In this document: piece by piece, positions 11,852-61,215 of the stretch
Layout of the letters: every line of letters begins with the position of its first letter
How positions within the stretch are numbered: position 1 is the stretch's first letter
DNA from: Cyathus striatus
Taxonomy: Eukaryota; Basidiomycota; Agaricomycetes; Agaricales; Nidulariaceae
Assembly (NCBI GenBank): GCA_025738555.1
Contig: JAOVFP010000006.1
Coordinates: 868,001-932,000, forward strand
Reading direction: 5' to 3'
DNA length: 64,000 nt
Notes under the pieces: model-generated
The model's input: the letters and a program-made list of their open reading frames with translations, nothing else
Told to the model about the DNA's origin: nothing
Database searches by the model: none
Position numbers and translations under genes: made by a program

Positions 11852-14103
11852 ATGGATCCGATTAATGCAGACCTACCTTCAAAAGTCGAAGAAAGCTTAG
11901 CTGTATGTCCACGGTACGCCTTTTGCAGTTGATCATCCCTTGATCTCAGGGACTTACGATTTTTATGTCTTGTAGATTCCGCATCCTTGTTGTTGGAAAT
12001 GTTAGGAATCTTGCTCTTAGAAGTATCAACCTCTTGCGGCTAACATCAGCATATTTATTCAGACTGGTGTTGGAAAGTCGTCACTCGTTAGTAGTTTGTT
12101 TAACATTAGTTTAAACGTGAGTATTTCTTGCCATCTTACTACGGTTCTAACTGACAACTTTCAAGGATACCGACATCGCGCATAGCCGCGAAGGAAGAGC
12201 TAACATTGAATTTGGATATACCTCGAATGATAATCCACGCTTCATTCTCCATGATAGCCAGGGCTTTGCCCCCGGATCCGCAGCTAATTGGGATATTGTA
12301 GAACGGTTCATTCGCAACAGAAACTCAGCCGCGGAACTGAAGGATCGCATTCACGCAATCTGGTACTGCATTATTTTACTCATGCACTATCCTATTCCTA
12401 GGCCTAATTCTTGGTGACAGGCTATGTATCGAAACTCCACGAACTGGGTCCAGGCTGCTGCAGACCGGAGATGAGAAATTGCTATCACTTGCGAAAGAAT
12501 GTAAGTCGTGGAGAACACATGTCCTGGATAATTGGTGATGCCTTCCTGCGGCAGTAAACATCCAGATACTCGCTATTTTCACCAAGTTCGATATGCTTGT
12601 TAATGAACATATTAGGAGGGCTCGCAGGGCTAGAGTCCCAGATTCTGCTGCTAGAGAGATGGCTGAAAAGGAATTTGAAAATCGCATTCAAAATTTTAAA
12701 ACATCAGCGCAAGTAGACTGTGTTTGGATATCGACGAAACCAAGTTTGCCTTTCGTTGGTCCAGTTATTAGACAATGCCTACGAGCTTACCATATATAGA
12801 GTACTTGTATTTGATTAGCCTTCAAAGGCTGGCAAAGGTTTCCCGGAGAGGATTGCATGAGATGGAAGGGGAACTATGGCTTCCATGGGCGGCTGCCCAG
12901 AAAATTAGTGCATACCAAAAGTCGACGAATCTATTCGGTATGTTCTGGAGTAATAAGTAACAAAGGTACATACAACTCACACTGAAACATCTACATTAGG
13001 GAAGGCTGTAAAAGCACGTGCTTCGCTATCTGATAACTCCATATTTAATGACCTTTTCTTGCCTTTTTCCAACCCTTTTTTACAGAGTACTGGATCAACT
13101 TGGGACAGAGCACTGCATTCCAGGGAAAGCCTTTGATAGATCGCCTGTCCCGAATCCATGACAACATTACTAAATCCTGGGATTTCCATGATCCCAGCCA
13201 GGTTCGTAGGTTTCCTGCATAAACCCTTTTAGCGATCCAGTTATACATTAACATGATCAGTTATAGTTACTATCGGAAGGTTATCTCTTGAGCAATGTTA
13301 TTGAGATGATCCAAGACTTTTCACCTGATTCCGAACCACAGACAGAAATGTAAGTAACTTATCAGACTACTGTAGTCAGTTTGGTGCATGCCATATGAAC
13401 ATATATTTGCTAACTGTAATCTTATTAGAGATGATTGGCTTTCTCAATACTCTGATGTAATGACTCTTGCAAGCGCTATTGGAGCATCCGTAGCGCAAAC
13501 ACTAGGTGGCTTCGGCATCACCGTTCGAGCACTCAAATATCTATATCAAACTTACCGGGCCGTGTACGTTGATTCCTCCTCATTGTTCAGCTAATAAACA
13601 GTGCCAACTTAGAGAACCCACTGCTCGTTATATGGGAGTTTTCATCATCGATCTTACCGTGATTTTCTACAGAATCTTTGAGACTACGTTACCGAAGGAT
13701 CCTCCAAGACCAGTGACAAAGGAACTTATCGAAGATACTATGAAACAATATATAAGACTTTAGAGTGTGCCCGGATCCACAGAGGCATCCGTAAGATGAC
13801 GCCAGTGTAGAATTATATTAGCTATTCAAATGTCACAATGATTATCATTCCATGCCGCCTCCACATATGCTTTTAGATAGTTTACTATACCTTTTATGTA
13901 TTCTACAGACAATGTGCTCCGCTTTCTATGTATTTAAGTAGTATACTATGTACTGTATTTACTTATCCATTTGCCTCATGCTCTCCTCCCCCTGCATGCT
14001 TTGAGGTCAAATGTAATGCTGTTGTTGTTGATGCGTTGTTTATTTCAACAGCCAGATCATTTTGATGATCAAATAGTGCACTTAATTAAAAAAATCCTTC
14101 CAA
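11852..14103 (+). pseudogene. P-loop GTPase (G-domain protein) copy A, broken
   Basis: The ATG at 11852 begins MDPINADLPSKVEESLAVCPR. After splicing it reads FRILVVGN-TGVGKSSLVSSLF, with an intron inside the P-loop, then GYTSNDNPRFILHDSQGF (G3, DSQG), ERFIRNRNSAAELKDRIHAIW, and ILAIFTKFDML (G4, TKFD). Downstream exons include LWLPWAAAQKISA, INLGQSTAFQGKPL and DDWLSQYSDVMTLASAIG with an Ala/Gly-rich hydrophobic helix. Compared with copy B it has one missing base near 12920 (CAAAAGTCG against CAAAAGGTCG), a 2-nt loss near 13590, extra bases near 13750, and a 245-bp solo LTR in the last exon (13806-14050). The family is a fungal AIG1/septin-like G-domain family of unknown role. Calling it a pseudogene rests on these breaks. 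Confidence 0.75.
13806..14050. mobile_element. Solo LTR, 245 bp, inside GTPase copy A
   Basis: The sequence begins TGTAGAATTATATTAGC and ends TTTATTTCAACA, so it has TG...CA ends, and is flanked by the 5-bp direct repeat GCCAG (13801-13805 and 14051-14055). Copy B at the homologous position (near 43899) has one uninterrupted GCCAG. This is therefore a clean insertion with target-site duplication. No internal coding sequence remains. Confidence 0.85.
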
Positions 14104-20092: not shown

Positions 20093-21480
20093 AGGCTTTT
20101 TCAAGTGTGTATTCACCTATTATTACTACTAATGATTTTCAAGGTGATCATAGGTGATCATAGGTCATTTCAAGTGTGTATTCACCTATTATTACTACTA
20201 ATGATTTTCAAGGTGATCATAGGTGATCATAGGTCATTTCAAGTGTGTATTCACCTATTATTACTACTAATGATTTTCAAGGTGATCATAGGTGATCATA
20301 GGTCATTTCAAGTGTGTATTCACCTATTATTACTACTAATGATTTTCAAGGTGATCATAGGTGATCATAGGTCATTTCAAGTGCATATTCACCTATTATT
20401 ACTACTAATGATTTTCAAGGTGATCATAGGTGATTATAGGTCATTTCAAGTGCATATTCACCTATTATTACTACTAATGATTTCCAAGGTGATCATAGGT
20501 GATCATAGGTCATTTCAAGTGTGCATTCACCTATTATTACTACTAATGATTTCCAAGGTGATCATAGGTGATCATAGGTCATTTCAAGTGTGCATTCACA
20601 TATTATTACTACTAATGATTTCACAGGTGATCATAGGTGATCATAGGTCTCATATATATTAGCAAATGTCACATTGGTCACATATATTCGCACGCGTCAC
20701 ATCTGTCACGTATATTCGCACGCGTCACATCTGTCACGTATATTCGCACGCGTCACATCTGTCACATATGTTCGCACGCGTCACATCTGTCACGTATATT
20801 CGCACGCGTCACATCTGTCACATATGTTCGCACGCGTCACATCTGTCACGTATATTCGCACGCGTCACATCTGTCACATATATTCGCACGTGTCACATCT
20901 GTGCGCGTGAAAAGCGTGACAAATGTGTGACAACTGTGATGCGTGCGAATATATGTGACAGCTGTGACGCGTGCGAATATACGTGACAGATGTGACACGT
21001 GCGAATATATGTGACAGATGTGACGCGTGCGAATATACGTGACAGATGTGACGCGTGCGAATATATGTGACCAATGTGACATTTGCTAATATATATGAGA
21101 CCTATGATCATCTATGATCACCTGTGAAATCATTAGTAGTAATAATATGTGAATGCACACTTGAAATGACCTATGATCACCTATGATCACCTTGGAAATC
21201 ATTAGTAGTAATAATAGGTGAATATGCACTTGAAATGACCTATAATCACCTATGATCACCTTGGAAATCATTAGTAGTAATAATAGGTGAATATGCACTT
21301 GAAATGACCTATAATCACCTATGATCACCTTGAAAATCATTAGTAGTAATAATAGGTGAATACACACTTGAAATGACCTATGATCACCTATGATCACCTT
21401 GAAAATCATTAGTAGTAATAATAGGTGAATACACACTTGAAAAAGCCTATGATCACCTATGATCACCACTACATTCATTA
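20093..21480. repeat. Foldback element: 1.4-kb near-perfect palindrome of two tandem-repeat blocks
   Basis: From 20101 a 69-bp unit (AAGTGTGTATTCACCTATTA... GGTGATCATAGGTCA) repeats about 8 times, then a 28-bp unit (CACATCTGTCACGTATATTC...) repeats about 8 times to about 20905. After a short centre (about 20905-20935, GCGTGAAAAGCGTGAC) the 28-mers and then the 69-mers follow in reverse complement to about 21480. Both outer ends carry CACTTGAAAAAGCCT / AGGCTTTTTCAAGTG. Open frames through it exist only because the repeat length is a multiple of three. It sits in copia gag between Gag proper and the protease region. Confidence 0.9.
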
Positions 21481-21685
21481 GTAACCCATAGATTCATTAG
21501 TAGTAACAAAATATGAATACACACTTGAAATGGCCTATGATCACCTATGATCACCACTACATTCATTAAGTAACCCATAGATTCATTAGTAAATATATAA
21601 TAGTAGAGGCACTCATAAAAAGCCCTGGTTTTATGATTGCGGCACTCATAAATCCTGGGCTTTTTATGATCACAATTGGCTGACA
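21481..21685. repeat. Short repeats flanking the foldback, disrupting copia gag
   Basis: Contains repeated CACTACATTCATTAGTAACCCATAGATTCATTAGTA-like stretches, a further diverged half-unit of the 69-bp repeat, and the inverted pair AAAAAGCCC / GGGCTTTTT around 21616-21666. This is probably the outer part of the same insertion. The zinc-knuckle part of Gag that should lie here is missing. Confidence 0.6.
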
Positions 21686-41957: not shown

Positions 41958-43960
41958 ATGAACTCGATCCACGCAGATCTACCTTCAAAAGTTGAAGAAA
42001 GCTTAGCTGTATGTCCACGGTACGCCTTTTGCAGTTGATCATCCCTTGATCCCACTGGAGACTTACGATCTCTATATCTTGTAGATTCCGCATCCTTGTT
42101 GTTGGAAATGTTAGAAATCTAGCTCTTAGAAGTATCAACCTCTTGCAGCTAACATCAGTATATTTATTCAGACTGGTGTTGGAAAGTCGTCACTCGTTAG
42201 TAGTGTGTTCAACATTAGTTTAAACGTGAGTATTTCGTGCCATCTCACCTATCTTTGCGACGGTTCTAACTGACAATCAAGGCTATCGACGTTGCGCATG
42301 ACCGTGAGGGGAGAGCCAACATTGATTTTGGATACACCTCGAATGATAATCCACGCTTCATTCTCCATGATAGCCAGGGCTTTGCGCCCGGCTCCACAGC
42401 TAATTGGGGTATTGTAGAACGGTTCATTCGTGACAGAAGCTCAGCCGCGGAACTGAAGGATCGCATTCACGCAATCTGGTACTGCATTATTTTACTCATG
42501 CACCATCCTATTCCTAGGTCTAATTCTTGGTGGCAGGCTATGTATTGAAACTCCACGAACTGGGTCCAGGATGCAACAGACTGGAGATGAGAAATTGTTA
42601 TCACTTGCGAAAGAGTGTAAGTCTTGAGGAACACCTGTCGCGGATAACTGATGATGCCTTCCTGCGGCAGTAAACATTCAGATACTCGCTGTTTTCACCA
42701 AGTTCGATATGCTTGTTAATGAATATATTAGGAAGGCTCGCAAAGCAGGAAACCCGGATTCCGGTGCTAAACCGATGGCTGAAACGGAATTTGAAAATTC
42801 CATTCAAAGTTTTAAAACATCATCGCAAGTAGACTGTGTTTGGATATCGACGAAACCAAGTTTGTCTTTCGTTGGTCCAGTTATTAGACGCCTGCGAGCT
42901 TACCACATACAGAGTACTTGACTAGCCTTCGAAGGCTGGCAGAGGTTTCCCGGAGAGATTTGCATGAGAAGGAAGTGGATCTATGGCTCCCATGGGCGGC
43001 TGCCCAGCAAATTAGTGCACGTCAAAAGGTCGACGAATCTATTCGGTATGTTCTGGAGTAATAAGTAGCGAAGGTACATGCAACTCACGTTGAAACTTCT
43101 ACATTAGGGAAGGCTGTAAAAGCACGTGCTCCGCCACCTGATAACTCCGTATAAGTTAATGACCTTTTCTCGCCTTTTTCCAACCTTTTTTACAGAGTAT
43201 TGGATCAACTTGGGACAAAGCGCTGCATTTCAGGGAAAGCCTTTGATAGATTGCCTGTCCCGAATTCATGACGACATCACCAAAGTCTGGAATTTCCATG
43301 ATCCCAACCAGGTTTGTAGGTTTCCTGCGTAAACCCTTAGCGATCCAGTTATACATTAACATGATCGATTATAGTTACTATCGGGAGGTTATCTCTTGAC
43401 CAATGTTATTGAGATGGTCCAAGATTTTTTACCTAATTCCGAACCACAGACAGAAAGGTAAGTATAACTCCTCAGGCTAGTGCATGCCATTTGAATATAT
43501 ACTTGCTAACTGTAATCTTATTAGAGATGATTGGCTTTCTCAATACTCTGATGTAATGACTCTTGCAAGCGCTATTGGAACAGTTGTAGCGCAAGCACTA
43601 GGTGGCCTCGGCATCGCCGTTCTGGCACTTAAATTTTTATATCGAACTTACCGAGCTGTGTACGTTGATTTCTCTTCATATTGTTCAGCTAATAAACACT
43701 GCCAACTTAGAGAACCCACTGCTCGTTATATGGGAGTTTTCATCATCGATCTTACCGTGATTCTCTACAGAATCTTTGAGACTACGTTACCGACGGAACC
43801 TCCAAGACCGGTGACAAAGGAGCTTATCGATGAAACTGTGGAACAATATAAGACTTTAGAGCGTGTCCGGATCCACAGTGGCATCCGTAAGATGACGCCA
43901 GATCATTTTGAGGGTCAAATAGTGCACTTACTTAAAGAAATCCTTCCTGAATATAAATGA
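41958..43960 (+). CDS. P-loop GTPase (G-domain protein), copy B, largely open
   Basis: The ATG at 41958 starts MNSIHADLPSKVEESLAVCPR. Exons read FRILVVGN / TGVGKSSLVSS (G1, split by an intron), GYTSNDNPRFILHDSQGFAP (G3), RSSAAELKDRIHAIW, ILAVFTKFDMLVNEYI (G4), then SLPHTEYLTSLRRLAEVSRR, LWLPWAAAQQISARQ, INLGQSAAFQGKPLIDCLSR and DDWLSQYSDVMTLASAIGTVVAQ. A Gly/Ala-rich helix follows, then YMGVFIIDLTVILYRIF and LKEILPEYK before TGA (43958-43960). GTP binding and hydrolysis is predicted; the cellular role is unknown. A 60-nt intron (GTAGACTG...TTATTAG, about 42832-42890) keeps the frame. One junction near 43040-43190 is unresolved, so intactness is likely but not proven. Confidence 0.65.
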
Positions 43961-46500: not shown

Positions 46501-48051
46501 GGAGCAGAATTACAATCTTACAAAGGATGGGAGCGAGTCTACTAGGGCGGGTATCACTGTAGGAAATTCCCTCAGGATTACCGCTAGCTTTAGGGTTCAA
46601 TCGTTCACAAATCCTCTGGGGCACTTTACGTTCTTGGTGCACGATCGGACCACGTCTATGAGGGAGGAGTAGCGTCCAATATGGGTCTATGGGAGGTATG
46701 TACTATATCAACTATGTCGTCCTCTTAAAGACCTGTTATTGATGCTTAGTAGACTGCAACGGACGGTTCTTCGGAGGAAAGCTATGACATCACTGATTCC
46801 TGCAGCGTCGAGCAGTATTGTCCCAGCTGCTGACTCCTCGCTCTCGTTAATGATACCCCAAGATACCACGTTTTCATGTGTGCCTCCTTTTCTACTGCTC
46901 GCCTCAATGTGCTTGGATAAACTCGCTAGGCTTCACCCGTGTTTGCTGTGAATCTGTACTACGAAGTGCCTGGTTCGCCCTACAGCTAGCATCGAAAGGA
47001 AGAGAGTCATCGGCGTATGTTGCTCAGATTGACGTGTACGCACTCTTGACCGCGGTATCTACCAGCTTGGTCCTGAGTCATCTTCTGGGATCGTAACGAA
47101 AACGAACGCGATCGCCGCCCATCGCAAAGTCTCGTACAATATCTAGTTCGCAGCGTATACGCATCCATTCTGAAACCAAACTTCTACTCTAGCGCGGGAA
47201 ACCACTATCTATTACGCGCAACGTCTGCAGGTCTACCAATCGCCAATCTATTCATCTCACAAAGCACTCTTAATATTATGCATGCGGTCCCTTTAAGTAT
47301 CAATCTACGGGACTCACTGGCTGCTGTAGCCTGTGCATGATGACGAGAAGTTGAAAGTGAGCGGGTACCAGTGTTGGTTTGGTAAGTAGACCTCGGTTCC
47401 AGTTGGTCCGTGGATGAATTTAGGCAGGTCACTCTAATGATTAATCTTTGATTGTGGTCGAAGCTAGGACTGATGCTTGCTGTGATGGATCGTTCCTCAA
47501 CACGAGACTATGGGAAAGCAACCTGTGCGATCGTACTGCCCAATTACAACATGATGAAAGCTTACGCACGCCTATTCCGGATACTTCATACAGCCTTTGG
47601 CCACCTCAGTGAGCCTTTGAATCCATAGGGCGTATCAAATGCGGGAGATTACTGGAAATCGGGTGTTGGTAGGAGAGTTGCTGTCGAGCAGTTGAGTCCT
47701 TTATAGTGTATGGACATGAAGGCATGAGTGAGTCGAAAGTCGACAGCATTCTGGTTTGACTCCAATACGCACGCCGACTTGGGCCTACACAAGGCTCTCA
47801 GAGACCGTGTATGGTTCGTTGATATCCACATGTTGTAGGGAGTTGAGGTGGGAGGCGTCGAAGCAGCACTTGCCATATATGTGGCACTCTTGTATCATGT
47901 GGTTCATGTAAGAATAGCGATAGGATATAAAAAGACATTTGTTTGTAATTGGCTGTGATGGTGTCCACAGGGATAAATGAAGTTGATCGATCTCATTGCC
48001 CACCTGTTCCCTACCATCCTTCAACTGATACACTGAATTGAACTCAACATT
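46501..48051. other. Intergenic between GH79 relic C and GTPase C
   Basis: 1.5 kb of mixed composition with several CG dinucleotides and no recognisable gene. It presumably contains the promoter of the GTPase at 48052. Confidence 0.4.
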
Positions 48052-51000
48052 ATGGACGACGAAAGATCCTTCAAACGTGCCGATAATGCAGCCAAATGGC
48101 ATTATGGACGTTTTCGTATACTCGTTATCGGCCGGGCCAATGCTGGCAAGACAACCCTGTTGAAACGAGTCTGTAACACAACGGAGGACCCTTGTATCTT
48201 CGATAAAAACGGAAAGTTGGTAAGTCCCATTGCCGATCTGCAAGGAGACAGCATCTTGAAAATACTTATAGCAGCTCGAACCAACTTCTGAGGTTTTTTC
48301 CCTTTAACTTATCGTATTCCATCAACAGTCTGCTGAGCGACTCTTTACTAGCGCGGAGTGCATGATATCAACCGTGCATTTTCTTTCAAGAGCAACCCGA
48401 GGTTCATCTTCCACGACTCTGCAGGATTCGAATCAGGAGGTGACAGGGAGCTGAAAGAAGTTCAAGACTTCATTGCAGAACGGTCTAAATCCACTAGAAC
48501 CACTGATCAGTTACATGCCATTTGGTATATTTCCTCAATATTTCCTCTAATTACCCAGCAATGTTAAAACACAACCTTGAATTGCAGGTTTTGTTTTAAA
48601 CCAGAAATATCGAGGCCTCTTCTCGAATTGGAAGAGAGGTTCTTTAACACAGCAAGAGCAGGAAAGAGTATGTGTAATGAATTTTTCTCATGCATATTTA
48701 ATAACCACATCAGTTCCTGTTATTGCAATTATAATGAAGTTTGATGATCTCATAGCTCAGATCTATGATGAGGATGTAGATGATGAAGAAAACTGTCAAA
48801 ATGCTGAAAAAGCAATGCAAGACAAGTTTGAACATCCATTATGCCTTTATAGTTATCCTCCCAAAGCATATACATTTATGGAAGGTATGTAGCAGTTATT
48901 CCTACTATCATAATACCATTAGCTGATTATTTGCAATTAATTTCCCAACATGTTCTTTACAGATTTACATGATAATGATAGCAATCATCAAAATCAGGTG
49001 AAAGACTTAATTGAAAAAACAGCAGAATCATTGGATGATATTGCACTTAAAATGCTGTTTATATCAGTTCAGCAGAATAATTTGGAATTATGCATAAAAT
49101 ATTCCTTAAAATAGTAAGTATCATAACATTATCAAATAGTATATGTGACTCAAAGCCAATGTAGTGGAAATATGAAAGATTTAAAAAAATATTTTAATAG
49201 TTATAAATCCATAACAATGGTAAATGAAATTATATTAAGATTCTTGTATATAACTAACATTATAAAGAAAATGCTTATAAGGTTCTGCTTTGCATGGTTT
49301 CCTCATATATATGTAGGCACAGTTGTTGCTTAATTACTCATCTAATCTATGTAATAGTTTAAGGTAAAGCACCTCAACAATATTTCAGGTAATGTAGCAC
49401 TCTAAAATTTCTTGCTATTTGACTAAATAACTTAATAGAATATTTGATACATTATACAACAGGGCTATGAAGTATGTAACACAAAAAATTTTGCTGATTT
49501 GATTAATTGAATTTATTTATAGTATGTGAGTTAAACTAATTTGTTATTAATTGGCACTTCAAAAGTTGAAGTTAATCATGTAGAATGTAAGTTTTTCTTT
49601 CATGTATGTAAAATACATGTATTCAATTTATACAGGGTGTAAGTTTTTCTTTCATGTGTGTAAAATACATATACTCATTTCATACAGTATGTAAGTTTTT
49701 TGATTTTGAATATAAACAATTATCTGATTTATCTTGATTTTGAACTTGACTCATCATCCAATCATTCTGTATTTAGATAGTAAGTGTTTTGCTTTCTGAA
49801 CTTGATCCATCATCTGATCATTCTATATTTAGAGAGTAAGTATCTTGCCTTCTGAACTTGACTCATTATCTGATTATTCTGTATTTAGTTGGTAAGTGTC
49901 TTGTCTTCTGAGCTTGATCCATCATCTAATCATTCTGTATTTAGAAAGTAAGTGTCTTGCTTTCTGAGATCCATGATCTGATCATTCTGTATTTAGAATG
50001 TAAGTGTCTTGCTTTCTGAATTTGACACATCATCTGATCATTCTGTATTTAGTTAGTAAGTGTCTTACTTTCTGAACTTGACACATCATCTGATCATTCT
50101 GTATTTAGGCTGTAAGTGTCTTGCTTTCTGAACTTGACACATCATCTGATCATTCTGTATTTAGTTGGTAAGTGTCTTGCTTTCTGAACTTGACACATCA
50201 TCTGATCATTCTGTATTTAGAGAGTAAGTGTCTTGCTTTCTGACTTTGATGCATGATCTGATCATTCTGTATTTAGGCTGTAAGTGTCAAGCTGTCTGAG
50301 TTTGATGCATGATCTGATCATTCTGTATTTAGGTGGTAAGTGTCTTGCTTTCTGAGCTTGACCTATGATCTGATCATACTGTATTTAGAATGTAAGTGTC
50401 TTGCTTTCTGATCTTAACCTATGATTTGATCATTCTGTATTTAGCCCGTAAGTGTCTTGCTTTCTGAGCTTGATTCATCATCTGATCACTCTGTATTTAG
50501 GATGTAAGTGTCTTGCTTTCTGAGATTGATTCATCATTTGATCATTCTGTATTTAGAATGTAAGTGTCTTGCTGTCTGAGCTTGACCCATCACCTGATCA
50601 TTCTATATTTAGTTGGTAAGCTCTTGCTTTCTGAGCTTGACCCATCATCTGATCATTCTGTATTTAGACTGTAAGCATTTTGCTTTCTGAGTTTGACTCA
50701 TCATCCAATCATTCTGTATTTAGATGGTAAGTGTCTTGCTTTCTGAGCTTGATCTGCAATCTGATCATTTTGTCTTTAGGCTGTAAGTGTCTTGCTTTCT
50801 GAGTTTGACTCATGATCTGATTATTCTGCATTTAGGCTGTAAGTGTCTTGCTTTCTGAACTTGACCTATGATCTGATTATTCTGTATTTAGAAAGTAAGT
50901 GTCTTGCTTCCTGAGCTTGACTCATGATCTGATTATTCTGTATTTAGAGAGTAAGTGTCTTGCTTTCTGAGCTTGACCTATGATCTGATCATTCTGTATT

Positions 51001-53261
51001 TAGAGAGTAAGTGTCTTGCTTTTTGAGCTTGACCCATGAGCTGATCATTTGTATTTAGTTGGTAAGTGTCTTGCTTTCTGAGTTTGACCCATAATCTGAT
51101 CATTCTGTATTTAGACTGTAAGTATCTTGTTTTTTGAGCTTGATTCATCATCTGATTATTCTGTATTTAGGATGTAAGTGTCTTGCTTTCTAAAATTGAT
51201 CTTTCTGAGCTTGATCCATGATCTGATCATTCTATATTTAGTCTGTAAGTGTCTTGCTTTCTGAACTTGACTCATAATCTGAATATTCTATATTTAGACT
51301 GTAAGTATCTTGCTTTCTGAGTTTGATGCATCATCTGATCATTCTGTATTTAGGCTGTAAGTGTCTTGCTTTCTGAGCTTGACCTATGATCTGATCATTC
51401 TGTATTTAGGATGTAAGTGTCTCGCTTTGTGGGCTTGACCCATGATCTGATCATTCTATATTTAGCTTGTAAGTGTCCTGCTTTCTGAACTTGACCCACG
51501 ATCTGATCATTCTATATTTAGCCTGTAAGTGTCTTGCTTTCAGAACTTGATTTATTATCTGATTATTCTTTATTTAGCTGGTAAGTGTCTTGCATTTGAA
51601 CTTGATTCATCATCTGATTATTCTGTATTCAGATTGTAAGTGTCTTGCTTTCTAAAGTTGATCTTTCTGAGCTTGACTCATGATCTGATCATTCTATATT
51701 TAGCCTGTAAGTGTCTTGCTTTCTGAACTTGATTCATCATCTGATCATTTTATATTTAGGATGTAAGTGTCTTGCTTTCTGAATTTGATTCATCATCTGA
51801 TTATTCTGTATTTAGCCAGTAAGTGTCTTGTTTTTGAACTTGATTCATTATCTGATCATTCTGTATTTAGATTGTAAGTGTCTTGCTTTCTAAAATTGAT
51901 CTTTCTGAGCTTGATTCATGATATGATCATTCTGTATTTAGGGTGTAAGTGTCTTGCTTTCTGAACTTGACCCATGATCTGATCATTCTATATTTAGCCT
52001 GTAAGTGTCCTGCTTTCTGAACTTGATTCATTATCTGATCATTCTGTATTTAGCTGGTAAGTGTCTTGCTTTTGAACTTGATTCATCATCTGATTATTTT
52101 GTATTTAGAATGTAAGTATCTTGCTTTTTAAAATTGATCTTTCTGTGCTTGACTCATGATCTAATAATTCTGTATTTAGGCTGTAAGTGTCTTGCTTTCT
52201 GAACTTGACCCATGATCTGATCATCCTATATTTAGGCTGTAAGTGTCTTGCTTTTGAACTTGATTCATTATCTAATCATTTTGTATTTAGGATGTAAGTG
52301 TCTTGCTTTCTGAGATTCATGATCTGATCATTCTGTATTTAGGCTGTAAGTATCTTGCTTTCTAAAATTGATTCATTATTTGATCATTTTGTATTTAGAA
52401 TGTAAGTGTCTTTATTTTGAATTTGATGCATCATCTGATTATTCTGTATTTAGATTGTAAGCATCTTGCTTTCTGAGCTTGATCTATGATCTGATCATTC
52501 TGTATTTAGATTGTAAGTGTCTTGCTTTCTGAACATGACTCATTATCTGGTCATTTTGTATTTAGAATGTAAGTGTTTTGCTTTTTGAGTTTGATCCATC
52601 ATCTGATCATTCTGTATTTAGAATGTAAGTATCTTGCTTTCTGAGCTTGACTCATCATCTGATTATTCTGTATTTAGATTGTAAGTGTTTGAGTTTGAAC
52701 TTGAGCCATCATCTGATCATTTGTGTTTAGATTGCAAGTGGTATACTATTACTATTAATTTTTTTTAAACAATATACATTTAGAGTGAAATTGCCATGGA
52801 ATTTAAACAAATTTTGGGCTTTGAGGTGAGTGTTAGTTTTAATTATTTACATTATTTAATGAATGTTCATTATTTTATTCAGAAACCAACACTTGTAGCT
52901 TTCTCTAGTTTGTCATATATTTACTTTTAATATTCATATTCTGACATATTTGTTTTAATCTTCAGGCATTATTATATGTGCAAAGTTTACATTCTGGAGA
53001 GACAATCCAGAATCAAACTTAATTGATTCCTTCAAGGAAGCATTTCAATATTATATAAGTACTGGATTAAAAGAAAAAGTGGAGAAAGATCTTCAGCAAT
53101 ATGATCAATTTCCATATTCATATTCTGATTGGGAGAATATGTTTCCTAGTATTTATAATATTGTTCTTAAACATCAACTTGGTATGTTTGACATTTCTTA
53201 TAATATATTTTCTTTTATTCTAACTGATTATTTTAAAGTTCATCAAAATAAAAATAACTAA
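48052..53261 (+). CDS. P-loop GTPase (G-domain protein), copy C, carrying the one-codon exon array
   Basis: The ATG at 48052 starts MDDERSFKRADNAAKWHYGR. Exon 1 (48052-48219) has FRILVIGRANAGKTTLLKRV (G1, GxxxxGKT). Exon 2 (48352-48524) has INRAFSFKSNPRFIFHDSAGFE (G3, DSAG). Then come 48588-48667, 48714-48884 (VIAIIMKFDDLIAQIYDED, G4-like KFD) and 48963-49113 (LHDNDSNHQNQVKDLIEK... ISVQQNNLELCIKYSL). After an intron of up to 349 nt follow exon GGCTATGAA (49463-49471), 57 three-nt exons (49523-52733) and exon 52784-52825 (SEIAMEFKQILGFE). A later exon from about 52986 reads FTFWRDNPESNLIDSFKEAF and LKHQL. The 52826-52985 intron needs an AAG acceptor to keep frame. The end near 53261 and region 49114-49462 are uncertain. 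Diverged from copies A and B. Confidence 0.75.
49472..52783 (+). repeat. Array of mini-introns alternating with 57 three-nucleotide exons
   Basis: Consensus unit: GTAAGTGTCTTGCTTTCTGA, a variable middle, CATCTGATCATTCTGTATTTAG, then three variable bases. Intron length is mostly 52-53 nt (period 55-56), with 68-nt versions at 51174, 51636, 51874 and 52112. Exon starts: 49523, 49584, 49636, 49688, 49777, 49833, 49889, 49945, 49997, 50053, 50109, 50165, 50221, 50277, 50333, 50389, 50445, 50501, 50557, 50613, 50668, 50724, 50780, 50836, 50892, 50948, 51004, 51059, 51115, 51171, 51242, 51298, 51354, 51410, 51466, 51522, 51578, 51633, 51704, 51760, 51816, 51871, 51942, 51998, 52054, 52109, 52180, 52236, 52291, 52343, 52399, 52454, 52510, 52566, 52622, 52678, 52731. 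Every spacer is exactly 3 nt. Splicing is inferred, not observed. Confidence 0.9.
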
Positions 53262-53900
53262 AATTAGTTGCTTATATAACACTATATATTTTGATATGGT
53301 TTCAATTTTTTATGCTTTCTTTTGCTGTTTTTTCTATTTTTACTTATTACTACTCAAAATTGTTTCAATTCTGAATTGCTATTGCTTCATTTTACTACTA
53401 TTATTTTGTGCATTTGTGCAGCATATACCTGCACCACTGACTTGTTATGTTAAGTGTATGGACATCATTTTTATATTTCTCCACATTATTATAGTCTTAT
53501 CTTTAGCACATTTAACTTGTTACATTAAATGTACAGACTCTTACATTAAAGTTTGCAGTGATACACTCATAAGGTTCATTCATAAACAACTAACATCATG
53601 TAATGAGTGTGACACATCTGAAAATGGTAATTTTTGTGGTAGCCATCCCAATAAGTTGAATAACTTTACAACTGGATATGTTTTTGTGAAAGTGGCTTCA
53701 GGAAATGGTGACCAGCATACTAGTTCACACATGTATCTTTTTTTTTTTTGATTAAAATGTATTTGTGGTGACAAGTGGCACATTTTATGCTACAGCTGGA
53801 GTTTGGCATGGGAATGGTGAAGTGAACTTGCATTTGTCACATCCTGTTCTATTCCACTAGGGACAAGAACCTTAGAGGAGATAGTCTAAGTGGCAGAGTA
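53262..53900. other. AT-rich sequence after GTPase C
   Basis: A long open stretch on the plus strand from 53296 is Phe/Leu/Ile-rich and looks like AT-rich background. A short internal duplication (ACTTGTTATGTTAAGTGTATGGAC near 53440 and a diverged copy near 53515) is visible. It might hold further exons of the GTPase gene, but I could not place them. Confidence 0.4.
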
Positions 53901-54440
53901 ACTTGTACATGTTAGTAGGGTGTGTGAAAGTAGTGAACAAGTATAGGGGTGGTGGAACATTAGCTTCAACTTGTGTGTTGTGCCTCTTGGACTTCCAGTT
54001 CCATATTTAGAACAAAGCACAGTAAGTAGCAAAATAGTGGAGTTGGCTCAAGGCCCAAGTGGGAGAAGAGTGTAAACATAGTCAATTCAAAACTGAAGTC
54101 TATCTACATTACAGGAGTAGTTTATATAGTAAACTACTTTATTTGAATGCATATGGAGTAATGCCCATGGGTATGTAACATTCTAAGGGTAAGTAAACTC
54201 CATAGAATGTAGACCATAGTAAACTGGTAGTACACCTCTAGATTATAGTCATAGGTAAAATGGCCATGGCTAGAGAACAAGATAGAAATATTAAAGGGAA
54301 GGAACAAGTAAACAATTACAAGTAAATATTAGTAAGGAAAAGTTCAATATATAATAAGTATACATAGTCTGGAGAAAACATACAAAATGCAGAGTAAACC
54401 TGGAGTTAGCTCCAATAGTTTGGAACAATTGCCATGAATA
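53900..54440 (-). repeat. Decayed gypsy-type LTR, minus orientation
   Basis: Aligns by eye with the inverted gypsy LTR at 36303-36966: AGCTTCAACTTGTGTGTTGTGCC here against GGCTTCAGCTTATGTGCTGCGCC there, followed by a matching TTCCAGTTCCATATTTAGAA. The differences I see are mostly C to T or G to A. Ends were not resolved. Confidence 0.6.
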
Positions 54441-55430
54441 TGACAGCATTGCATAATGCTCATCCACAAATGTAAGCCTAATATGCCTCTAGGGAAAGGG
54501 TTGCTTTAAATAATGTTTAGAAATTTTACCAAAATACAGCTGAGAATGCATCAAAGAAGAAAAATATGTTGAAATTCTGTAGGCACTGCAAGGATAAGAG
54601 AAAAAACTTGAAGTGTACTATATCAATGCACACTTATCTCAGTAATAATGCAATTGTGAATTAACCAGATAAGACCCAGTAATTATAACAAGGAATTTTG
54701 ACTGAAATAGATAGGTTATGTAGTAACTAGTCAAAGTTTCAGTACTTAGTAGCAATGACCATGCATAGAAGGTGAATGCAATTGGAATGCAGGCAATTAC
54801 ACTGTTACACATGAGTTTATTGAATTTGACCTGAGATTATACATGATATATTTAAGTAAAGGTTTAGATAGTAAAGGTTTAGATATAAATCATCAACTGA
54901 GATAGTTTCTTTGTGATACCTGAGTGATTGTCCAAGCCTCTGAGACTAATGTGGAATAAATACTAAAAATACCTCTTCTCAGCAAGTATGCACCCAAAAA
55001 TTACAAAGCTTGGTAGATATGTTCTATTCACTTATATGTATATTTCTCTCAAGCAATTTGCCATATAAAGTATCATATTGTTGTCCTATTATGATTTCAA
55101 AGAAAAATTTCCATTTTTAGACAGATTGTCACAGTAAAGTAACACACACATAACATTAGTTGTTTATGAATGTCATCTACCTTAGCTACATTAAAATAAA
55201 TTTATTATATAATTTCTTATAATATAACTGGGTATAGGGTAAATATCATATAGTGAACTCACTGTTATATCCATATCCAGTTAGTGCTGACATTACTGAA
55301 GGCATTCATGTGATCTTCTAACATACCCAGTCCATTCCTGGAACATACCCACTATGGGTTTATACTTTCTGACATTTCCACCTGGGTTTATACCCAGAAC
55401 CCACCAGGTTTTCCTTCAGGTATCTCAGAT
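54441..55430. other. AT-rich, CpG-free intergenic sequence
   Basis: No coding pattern, TIR or LTR end recognised. Confidence 0.4.
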
Positions 55431-55439
55431 ACATACTTT

Positions 55440-56640
55440 CTCTTATGACAGCCTTACTGCATCATTGTAGTATTACTTCTCTCTTCCATTCTTACTTATA
55501 CATTTCATTATAGTCAATGTAGTTTAGTTTATGCCACCATCTTTATTCTTTATTCTGAACATGTCATTTGTGCTCCTACTCCACTTTTCCCAGTCTTTAT
55601 CTTTTACCTATGTTCCTTGCTTCCACATTCATACTTATAGGTTTATACTTAGTATATATAGTCTTTCAGATGTACTATTAGTCTGTAGTATTCATATCAA
55701 CTTTGTACAATTACTTCCTACTCTTGAGTCTGAAACTCACTCCAGGTTTTCCTTTGGGTTTCTCTCCCACTGCTTAGTGTAGTGACAAAGCCCCTCTCTA
55801 TACTCTGGAACATTCTCTTCCATTGAATATCATTTGTTGTGAAATATGAACCATTTCCAGAAGATATCCAGGCAGCACAGCATATAAGCTGAAGCCACAG
55901 TTCATTCCTGCACTCCCACTCTATGTTTCTGCATCTGTACTCACTTCAGGTTTTCATTACAGTTCTCCTGTGCCTTCCAGGCATCTTCATATTTGTTCCT
56001 AGTAGGAAGGAATTGGTATGTAACAGATATATACTTTCTCCTATAACTGTCTTACCTTGTCACTGTAGCATTACTCCTCACTTCCATTCTTACCTATACA
56101 TTTTATTATGGCCAATATAGTTTAGTTTATGCCAACATCATTTATCTTCATTCTGAATACATCATTTGTGCCCCTACTCTGCTTTGCCCAGACTTCATCT
56201 CTTACCTATCCCTTCAACTTATCCTTAGCTTCTTGCTTCTGCATTCATATCTACTGCTTCCTAGTACATATATATAGTCTTCCAGATGTATTAGTAGTCT
56301 TCAGTATTTGTATCAACTCTGTACAACTACTTCCTTCTCTTAAGTCTGAAACCCACTCTGGGTTTTCCTTTGGGTTTCTCTCCTGCTGCCTAGTGTAGTA
56401 GTGAAGCCTTTCTCTATACTCTGGAATGTTTCCTGCTATTGAATATCATTTGTTGTGAAATAAAAACCATCCCTGGAAGATATCCAGGTGGTGCAGCACA
56501 TACACTGAAGCCATGGTTCATTCCCACACTCCCACTCTATGTTTCCATACCCATACTCATATTGGGTTTTCATTATAGTTCTCCTGTGCCTTCTGGGCAT
56601 CTTTGCATTTGTTTCCAGTAGGAAGTAATCAGTATGTAAT
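55440..56640 (+). repeat. Two tandem decayed gypsy-type LTRs in direct orientation
   Basis: 55440-55995 and 56030-56640 share, in order, ACTTTCTCYTATRAC, TTCCATTCTTACYTATACATT, TAGTTTAGTTTATGCCA, TCATTTGTGCYCCTACTC, CCAGATGTAYTA, GGTTTTCCTTTGGGTTTCTCTC and a segment AGCAYATAMRCTGAAGCC that matches the plus-strand gypsy LTR near 26560. A and T have replaced most C and G of the younger LTRs. No element body lies between them. Confidence 0.7.
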
Positions 56641-57990
56641 ACTCACATGATAGTACTTCAATGCAAAATATTTTTAAATATCTTTGAAATATTCAGACTC
56701 CAAACCAGTCACTCCACATGTTCAAGTTGGACTAAAGACATTATATTCAAGTAAGTGAAACTTGAATGTGCTACAGGTAACTGGCAAAATATGTAGAGTT
56801 AGTTGCAGGAATAAAAATTTCTCATAGTATATGTGGCAGTAGAAGCCTTCTGACCATGGCAGGTGAAACTGCTGGAAGTGTTATGATTAAGTTCTGATCA
56901 AGATGTTAATCATAAAAGTCCAATAGTCATGTGGCTAACAATTTCAAAGAATAAGTTAATCAGTATTGAAGTAAAGTTTTTATTCACAATTACTTAAGTT
57001 GATTAGACTTAAGATCAAGAGTGTGAATAATCAAGTAGAAGTCAAGTTTGATTTAAGCTGAAGCTTGAGCTCTACACCCCAAGTTCCTACTGTTTAAATA
57101 CAAACTAACTTGTACTAATAATAAGTTAGGGTAAAGAGATTGTAGGTATAAATAAAGTAAAATATTGTGCATTGACTGTGCATTACTGCAGTGCAGTTAA
57201 GAACTGTAAAAATAAACTAAGTATAGTATGGAAAGTCTAACAACCATGCTGAATGTTATTAAGTAAAATTGATTTCAACATCCAGCATCATGGCTTTCTC
57301 AGTTAGAATTCACTATTTTGTAATGCTCACATAAGAACAGAATTTCATACCTACTATCTATAAATCAAAAATAAAATATACAAATATGTATTCAAGAGTT
57401 TAAAAATGTAGTACAGGCAATGAAACTTAAATTATTCAACAAACCAAGATGTTGAAGATTGTACTATGTAATCAGTAAGATCATATTTGTGTGACATGTC
57501 TGAATGTGTTCAACTTGCATACTTATCAACTCAGTCTCTCCACTCAGTCTCTCTTTTTCTCCAAAATATATGTCTTTGTGGACCTTCCCAGCAATCAATC
57601 TTGAGGAACATCACAACATGAACATCACAACACATGAAAATCTTCTCAGAACTGCCAACAGAGATTAATCAAAGTTGGGTATGGCTATGCAGTTTGGAGT
57701 AAAGTTATATGTGTTACACTTTTCTCTTCTCAACCCCACCAGACCTCTTTATTTTCACATGACCATCTATTTATAGTACTGATACATGTTTCATCTTCAT
57801 TACCCCTTACCTCTGACCTCTTACCCCTTGCTGATACCCACCACCCTGGTTTGTCATACTACTGGCATGGACCTTGCTTACTGATACATCTCATCTTATG
57901 TTGTACACATTTCACTTCTTCTTTTAGACCTCTGTCAAGTCATGACAAGTCATGGACCTATTTATAGATAGCATAGCCTTCTGTGAACAG
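56641..57990. other. AT-rich intergenic sequence
   Basis: No gene or element ends recognised; no CG dinucleotide seen. Confidence 0.4.
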
Positions 57991-58265
57991 ACCTGTATGT
58001 GTCACTCCCACACACATCTCAACTGACTATCAACTAACTATCAACTGACTCTCATATAAGTATCAATAGTCTCACCTGACTCTCATCTGACTCTCAACTA
58101 AGTTTCAGAAGTCAGGTTAGACTCTCATCTGACTGTTATTTGACTCTCAACTGAGTTTCAAAAGTAAACTGAGAGTCTCATTAGAGTCAGTTGAGAGTTA
58201 GTTGAGACCTGAAAATAGTATTGGGCTTAGCTTGGATTCTTACCTGACTCTTACCTGACTCTTAC
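57991..58265. repeat. ACTGACTCTCA-type short repeats (block 1)
   Basis: Many copies of ACTGACTCTCA / ACTGACTATCA occur on the plus strand, followed near 58165-58215 by complementary GAGAGTCAGTTGAG forms, so the block can fold back. Related block at 60925-61215. Confidence 0.75.
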
Positions 58266-58850
58266 TTAACTCCATGTGTGACATGTTGGAAAATATTGGA
58301 AAAAGTGTGACATGTTGGAAAATGTTGGAAAAGCATGGGAAAAATGTAACATGTTGGAACACTGTTACATATCATAACCATCACACTTGCCACACTTTTC
58401 CAACATGTCACACTTTTCCCATGCATGTCACACATGTCACGCTTTTCCAACATTTTCCAGCATGTCACACTTTCACACATGTGTGACAATAGAGTCTAGG
58501 TACAGCTTAGTTTCCCAGCATATCATACTTTTTCAACATTTTCCAGCATGTCACACATTTTTCAACATGTCACACACGTCACACTTTTTCCAGCTTTTTC
58601 CAACATTTTCCAGCATGTCATGCTTTTCCCAACATTTTCCAACATGTCACGCTTTTTCCAGCATGTTACACATATCACACATTGTGACATGTGTGATATG
58701 TGTGAGGACTGTGGGAAACTATAGTCTAGGTAAGGGTGATGACTGTGCACACTTGTACTAGTGTATCCATTCAGGAAGTCCACTTTTTTCAACATGTCAC
58801 ACATGTCACACATTGTGACATGTGTAATGACTGTGGGAAACTATAGTGAT
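58266..58850. repeat. Foldback made of TGTGACATGTTGGAAAA-type repeats
   Basis: TGTGACATGTTGGAAAA occurs several times at 58275-58360; its complement TTTTCCAACATGTCACA then repeats through 58395-58680. TGTGAC and GTCACA face each other around 58680-58690 and 58810-58820. It shares the GTCACA/TGTGAC core with the palindrome at 20670-21080. Confidence 0.8.
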
Positions 58851-60924: not shown

Positions 60925-61215
60925 ATTGATAGTCAGATGATAGTCAGGTGAAATTGTATCAATCAACTTTCAGATTAGTATCTGATACCAGATTGAATAA
61001 GAGTAAGCTAATAGTAAGGTGAGAGTAAGGTGAGACTAGCAATATTCTAATTTTGTACATAATTATAATCTGACTATCAACTGACTCTCACCTGACTCTC
61101 AAAACTCTCATCTGACTCTCACCTGACTCTCAACTAAGTCTCATCTTACTATCAATCTACTCTCTGATACTATCAACTGACTCTCAACTGACTCTCTGAT
61201 AGTCAATTGAAACAT
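60925..61215. repeat. ACTGACTCTCA-type short repeats (block 2)
   Basis: Inverted and direct copies of GACTCTCA and GATAGTCA, as in 57991-58265. Followed by a TATAAATAG box at 61258-61266 and a CT-rich stretch, so the block may sit in the U3 part of an LTR or upstream of a promoter. Confidence 0.65.

Follow-up and report, generated by a model that had tools for sequence, protein, structure and literature searches.

Genes with dozens of codon-sized exons have been described before in fungi. In Tuber melanosporum, the expanded NACHT-ANK (nank) family is said to contain "dozens of 3 bp mini-exons" or "tens of codon-sized microexons," a description that four papers credit to Iotti et al. 2012 (PMC9815663, PMC3689799, PMC4986451, PMC10197012), and splicing has reportedly been proposed as a way to diversify a recognition part of these proteins. 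The HNWD (NACHT-WD) genes of Podospora reportedly contain nearly identical repeats that undergo concerted evolution, with a few residues under diversifying selection (PMC4986451). Single 3-bp exons are reported for the animal genes homothorax, troponin T, and NCAM (PMC7392893), and schistosome micro-exon genes are reported to have many tiny exons of 3 to 81 bp and introns of up to 5 kb (PMC10526429). Here we describe a locus in the agaricomycete Cyathus striatus, lying in a 64,000-nucleotide stretch of forward strand (bases 868001-932000 of contig JAOVFP010000006.1, here C6, in the 107-Mb assembly GCA_025738555.1; hereafter the window), where a run of 57 base triplets, each framed by splice sites, sits within a predicted gene for an agaricomycete P-loop GTPase. 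We consider it probable that these triplets are 57 consecutive 3-nt exons, spliced codon by codon in phase 0 into a hypervariable linker between the GTPase half of the protein and a C-terminal helical half. The first-pass annotation of this DNA knew of no described gene with dozens of one-codon exons; the truffle family, as those papers describe it, supplies one.

The array is a confirmed feature of the sequence, and its parts are as follows.
49472..52783, + strand: array of 57 triplets, the first (TAT) at 49523 and the last (ATT) at 52731
49472-49522 and 52734-52783, + strand: flanks of the array, namely the leading intron and a trailing 50-nt GC-AG intron
49523-52733, + strand: the 57 triplets and the introns between them, with predicted product YNGYIRLKNLALRAVNPDNLTMAAKRRLTDSTADLPLIPDPIGPLNAADANIINNII

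As the first-pass annotation had it, every one of the 57 triplets follows an AG and precedes a GT (56 cases) or a GC (the last), and the 56 near-clonal introns between triplets measure 49 to 86 nt. Exactly 53 nt is the length of 38 of these introns, whose consensus is GTAAGTGTCTTGCTTTCTGAGCTTGACCCATCATCTGATCATTCTGTATTTAG. The donor is GTAAGT in 52 of 57 cases, GTAAGC in three, GTGAGT in one, and GCAAGT in the last, and GTAAGT is much commoner in the array than in the remaining introns of the gene (2/13; Fisher 1.3e-7). When the neighboring exons were used in a six-frame search, the genome proved to hold two paralogues, one on C2 and one on C15, each with its own array at the equivalent place (27 and 34 triplets, respectively, making 118 with those of the window). 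In all three arrays, the gap from TTTAG to a GTRARY-type donor no more than 12 nt away is exactly 3 nt (51/51 in the window, 25/25 in C2, and 30/30 in C15), so that the earlier statement that no 2- or 4-nt spacers occur now extends to 106 of 106 gaps. No GTAAGY within the arrays (n = 55, 22, and 29 for the window, C2, and C15) lacks a preceding AGNNN, nor does any unpartnered GTAAGY or TTTAG occur in them. In the window introns with a length of 53 nt (n = 38), none of the 266 cells at the GTAAG and AG positions departs from the consensus, whereas 170 of 1,748 cells in the other intron columns do, and seven columns drawn at random match this conservation with a P of 5e-5. A genome-wide scan for two tandem units with a TTAG acceptor and GTAAGT donors gave 83 matches, all of them at the window, C2, and C15 loci (45, 18, and 20, respectively), and the reversed-pattern control gave none; the exact array-intron pattern gave 22 matches, at the window locus only. 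Both counts are lower bounds, and the scan covered the TTAG/GTAAGT consensus only, so that arrays with other consensus letters or acceptors lie outside it and may exist. One 95-nt intron of the C15 array (L018, about 2243-2341) resembles two units fused, with one triplet and both splice sites lost.

The array is predicted to sit inside a single gene of 71 exons, comprising 10 exons at 48052-49471, the 57 triplets, and 4 exons at 52784-53261, with introns of 45 to 99 nt. The joined frame over all 71 predicted exons is open to a TAA (452 codons plus stop), and the model and its phase are well supported. Its exons outside the array are these.
48052-48219, 48275-48292, 48352-48524, 48588-48667, 48714-48884, and 48963-49113, + strand: E1-E6, G domain and first helices
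49165-49219, 49268-49312 (..FAWFPHIY), 49358-49363 (6 nt), and 49463-49471 (9 nt, GYE), + strand: E7-E10
52784..52831, + strand: T1, SEIAMEFKQILGFEVS, phase 0 at both ends, donor GTTAGT, length and donor equal in C2 and C15
52883-52907, 52966-53181, and 53239-53261 (stop TAA), + strand: T2-T4, C-terminal helical part (KPTLVAFSSIIICAKFTFW..)

Exons E1-E6 are placed by the open spliced frame, a Pfam match to MMR_HSR1 (E 2e-5), and alignment of homologues over this part; E7-E10 by equal exon lengths and frame in C2 and C15 and by a WF.H motif present in homologues; and T2-T4 by the open frame, equal lengths in the paralogues, and a match to the C terminus of homologues. Two exon boundaries given by the first-pass annotation had to be revised. 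Exon 48963-49113 (E6), taken there as the direct neighbor of the array, ends in phase 2 and is followed by the four exons E7-E10, which we adopted because joining E6 straight to the 9-nt exon, a candidate we rejected, creates a TAG stop. The first exon after the array ends not at 52825 but at 52831, because the GTTAGT there is kept in all three paralogues and the GTGAGT at 52826 is not. In a Pfam search with the protein minus its array (E up to 0.1), only GTPase and P-loop families appeared, MMR_HSR1 being the best and the others falling below their own cut-offs, and neither a NACHT domain nor ankyrin repeats were found. Within the 99-nt intron at 49364-49462, which precedes the 9-nt exon, TTTCAG is directly followed by GTAATG (GTAATT in C15) in all three paralogues, possibly marking a zero-length (recursive) splice point.

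Starting with the donor of E7 and through the donor of T1, all junctions are in phase 0, and the frame therefore survives whichever later acceptor a donor joins. We infer the splicing of the array, as well as its variability, and the following scheme is our proposal. Each short intron would be recognized by intron definition, and the order of removal would let a 3-nt exon join its neighbor first. Unequal exchange would gain, lose, and reshuffle units and could not break the frame, because each unit is one whole codon. Selection would favor units with differing codons, with the consequence that the constant part of the repeat would be discarded as intron and the variable residue alone would reach the protein. 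The array could also yield isoforms, since skipping any number of units would keep the frame, all 58 donors and 58 acceptors between E10 and T1 being in phase 0. Carried to its limit, this would make the array a combinatorial generator of receptor diversity, from which each hypha or transcript would draw a different in-frame subset of the 57 exons (up to 2^57 linkers) for nonself recognition by an immune-type GTPase; we regard this stronger version as unlikely. A role in recognition as such is likely for the linker, although this is a guess, drawn from analogy with fungal recognition genes and from the differently coded runs that the sister genes on C2 and C15 carry.

Comparison of the paralogues covers E5-E10 and T1-T4 and leaves out E1-E4. 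These ten exons are identical in length in all three copies, and over them dN/dS is 0.21 for C2-C15, 0.40 for C6-C15, and 0.54 for C6-C2, the first value indicating purifying selection on the flanking frame. Between C2 and C15 the flanking introns differ by 9% (44/487) and the array intron consensus at 1 position in 53. Despite the modest divergence of the flanking introns, the interior triplets of these two arrays align no better than in shuffled order (P 0.32).

If the arrays were plain minisatellites, triplets and introns should have diverged equally. In C2, 72 of 210 unit pairs have at most one difference in the 53 intron bases (1.3% per site), and in such pairs triplet positions 1, 2, and 3 differ at frequencies of 0.74, 0.67, and 0.17 when the downstream intron is compared and 0.79, 0.68, and 0.11 when the upstream intron is. 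The same cut leaves only 10 pairs in C15 (downstream, 0.30, 0.60, and 0.00; upstream, 0.50, 0.90, and 0.00) and only 9 in the window array (downstream, 0.67, 0.89, and 0.78; upstream, 0.78, 0.67, and 0.67). Ranked by variability among the 56 columns of units with a 53-nt intron (21 in C2, 38 in C6, and 24 in C15), triplet positions 1 and 2 come 1st and 2nd in C2, 2nd and 1st in C6, and 3rd and 1st in C15, and position 3 comes 12th, 6th, and 34th. The third base is T in 26 of 27 triplets in C2, 33 of 34 in C15, and 39 of 57 in the window (98/118 in total), and the sole non-T triplets of C2 and C15 are TGG (W) and CAA (Q), coding for residues that NNT cannot encode. With positions 1 and 2 close to saturation, T prevailing at position 3, and the array introns almost identical, we read this pattern as diversifying selection on the encoded residues, atop a homogenizing exchange among units. 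Variation is less tightly confined to the three bases than the first-pass annotation had stated. The 53-nt introns of the window array (n = 38) differ pairwise by 15.6% in their interiors, and columns 28 and 32 of the intron vary nearly as much as the triplet does.

A search with the window protein returned 1,279 homologues at E <= 0.001, the best of them from Cyathus striatus itself (79% identity over 62% of the query). Agaricomycete proteins with an MMR_HSR1-like G domain can be aligned over both the G domain and the C-terminal part (a separate structure alignment took in 50 hand-picked of 145 proteins), and their architecture runs from the G domain through WF.H, a variable stretch, and a motif like KPSLT.FAALLICLENSFW to a helical tail. 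Among 15 sequences hand-picked for a linker table (of 41 examined, from 145 homologues listed), nine related open reading frames (ORFs) could be parsed and hold in-frame linkers of 18 to 35 residues at the place of the array. For P0135 only the left anchor matched and the linker was delimited by eye, P0021 and P0010 misfit the left anchor, and P0125, P0132, and P0133 end early. Outside the table, P0019 and P0088 reach WF.H and have little or no linker, P0082 has a different short stretch, and P0005, P0007, P0024, P0036, P0085, P0134, P0141, and others end soon past WF.H. Several relatives from JGI are probably cDNA, since each consists of a long frame without introns on a contig of 0.9 to 1.6 kb. 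The linker of P0093, EGGLGGGRLGGRLGHLRLGLGGRGGGLGHLRLL, has 32 of 33 residues that can be written as NNT, and the G, R, L, and H that it holds are likewise the dominant residues of C15. P0121 and P0135 share, with few changes, about 55 residues before the linker and LHQNIKEV.TFMQLKITD after it; the linker itself differs. P0125 has the same left flank, continues as DG-VSCSLLFLQNWMTDEAT, and ends there, which would fit a retained GTAAGT..ACTGAT..TAG intron, and P0132 and P0133 run 15 residues past KTE into VSVFPRKLDD, perhaps another one. P0129, from a 14-kb NCBI contig, reads ..ATQ-H-VSCSLPF..-Q-VSCSL.., as would fit read-through of two tandem units. Exons of two remoter GTPase relatives (45% identity to P0003) lie elsewhere in the window, at 42327-42512 and 12208-12393, and are free of the tandem-triplet pattern.

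These linkers bear on the possibility that splicing uses a few donors and acceptors and passes over most of the array, for example from E10 to T1, the inner sites acting as decoys or as regulators by which the process is slowed or tuned. Such skipping would preserve the frame, given the exon lengths, and the apparent omission of the array from the public Cyathus model P0005 and the near or complete lack of a linker in the Lactarius (P0088) and Laccaria (P0019) models would agree with it. Decoys, however, need no diverse codons, and yet in no array does codon position 1 or 2 rank lower than third among the columns for variability; together with the nine related ORFs that do hold linkers, this makes predominant skipping quite unlikely. 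We had also considered P0005 as an annotated product of the array and dropped it, its end being, as judged by eye against the C2 sequence, exon T3 and the next intron translated in the wrong frame.

Several observations weigh against splicing of the array into a selected linker. The public Cyathus striatus models P0001 and P0002 stop ahead of the array, and P0005, as we read it, seems to jump across it; the Laccaria and Lactarius models just mentioned also count here. The related ORFs that we take to be cDNA are known here as protein sequences alone. The C6-C2 comparison implies only mild constraint on the flanking exons. Conservation of the splice signals beyond that of other columns is weak in C15 (P 0.03) and not significant in C2 (P 0.31), where the introns scarcely vary, and weaker donors (GTAAAT, GTAATT, GTAGGT) occur among the C2 and C15 units. 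In the window array, position 3 is itself variable (0.50 pairwise); leucine, for instance, is written TTG, TTA, or CTG, choices of a synonymous type. Finally, stop codons are not significantly avoided (0 in 118 triplets, 1.05 expected, P 0.32; for the window alone, 0.84 expected, P 0.40). We therefore rejected stop-codon avoidance as proof of translation; with so few stops expected, their absence is no evidence by itself.

The last two points would also suit a minisatellite whose triplets are unconstrained or diversified by a local mutational process and whose introns are homogenized, with no selection at the protein level. The array is, after all, a tandem repeat, and adjacent triplets show no significant resemblance of the kind that tandem duplication would leave behind (P 0.14 in C6, 0.15 in C2, and 0.19 in C15), the introns showing a slight similarity at lag 1. 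Unconstrained drift, however, does not produce about 0.7 differences per site beside 1.3% in the introns, and the sparing of the third base in C2 and C15, the invariable 3-nt gap, and the conserved flanking frame make this explanation highly unlikely. Decay of the copies into pseudogenes, with the array left as a relic, is scarcely credible, for although the AT-rich surroundings (30-35% GC at 48-58 kb), some weak donors, and the C6-C2 dN/dS of 0.54 lean that way, the frames are open, exon lengths are equal in all three copies, and dN/dS is 0.21 for C2-C15. The first-pass proposal of consecutive one-codon exons has gained a phase and an open frame, arrays in paralogues, intact splice signals, codon-wise diversification, and linkers in relatives, and the splicing itself stands as a prediction.

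Set beside the systems described at the outset, the Cyathus gene works like those of Tuber and Podospora and belongs to neither. It shares with the truffle family its dozens of 3-bp exons, here 57, 27, and 34 predicted ones. The Tuber genes, as described, combine NACHT and ANK, whereas the array here would encode an internal linker of a P-loop GTPase in which Pfam finds neither; the closest named protein matches are agaricomycete, and diversification has been measured at the level of the codon. In Podospora HNWD, translation reportedly includes the constant part of each repeat, whereas here that part would be intron and one residue per unit would be left. The animal 3-bp exons are likewise of one-codon size but reportedly come one per gene rather than dozens in a row, and the schistosome genes differ in that all predicted array exons here are 3 nt long and the introns of the gene short (mostly about 53 nt in the array). 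Introner-like elements and stwintrons of fungi share the near-identical short introns; the introns here, however, lie in tandem at three paralogous loci only, by lower-bound counts, rather than dispersed over many genes. Immunity-related GTPases (Irga6, Irgb6, Irgb10, and GM4951) are another near system, the mark of that class being a G domain with an IRG helical domain. No report of triplet-exon arrays in Agaricomycetes was found in open-access full texts. What is new here is the phylum, the gene family, and the codon-level evidence; the device of codon-sized exons was already known from the truffle.

The GTPase gene stands at the start of an AT-rich block (48001-58000; 30-35% GC, against 43-47% in the preceding 8 kb). 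Further along the window there are adjoining direct copies of about 600 bases (55426-56023 and 56024-56639; 79% identical) and short tandem-repeat clusters at 58017-58678 and 61070-61196 (CTGACTCTCAA; CACACTTTTCCAACATGT type). A large inverted tandem-repeat array occupies 20099-21591, with 69-bp units (8 copies) and 28-bp units, after which units of 28 and 69 bp resembling these run in the opposite orientation.

If spliced as predicted, the gene would be an extreme case for the spliceosome, with 57 exons of 3 nt that are likely too short to hold two splice complexes simultaneously. It resembles a repeat protein that keeps the variable residue only, the constant repeat being thrown out as intron, and because those introns provide a yardstick beside each codon, it amounts to a clean natural experiment. 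Gene finders easily miss such genes, the Cyathus striatus models examined stopping at the array or seeming to skip it, and the class may therefore be larger than known. Splicing as predicted would extend the truffle's device of codon-sized exons to a further gene family and to a second phylum of fungi.

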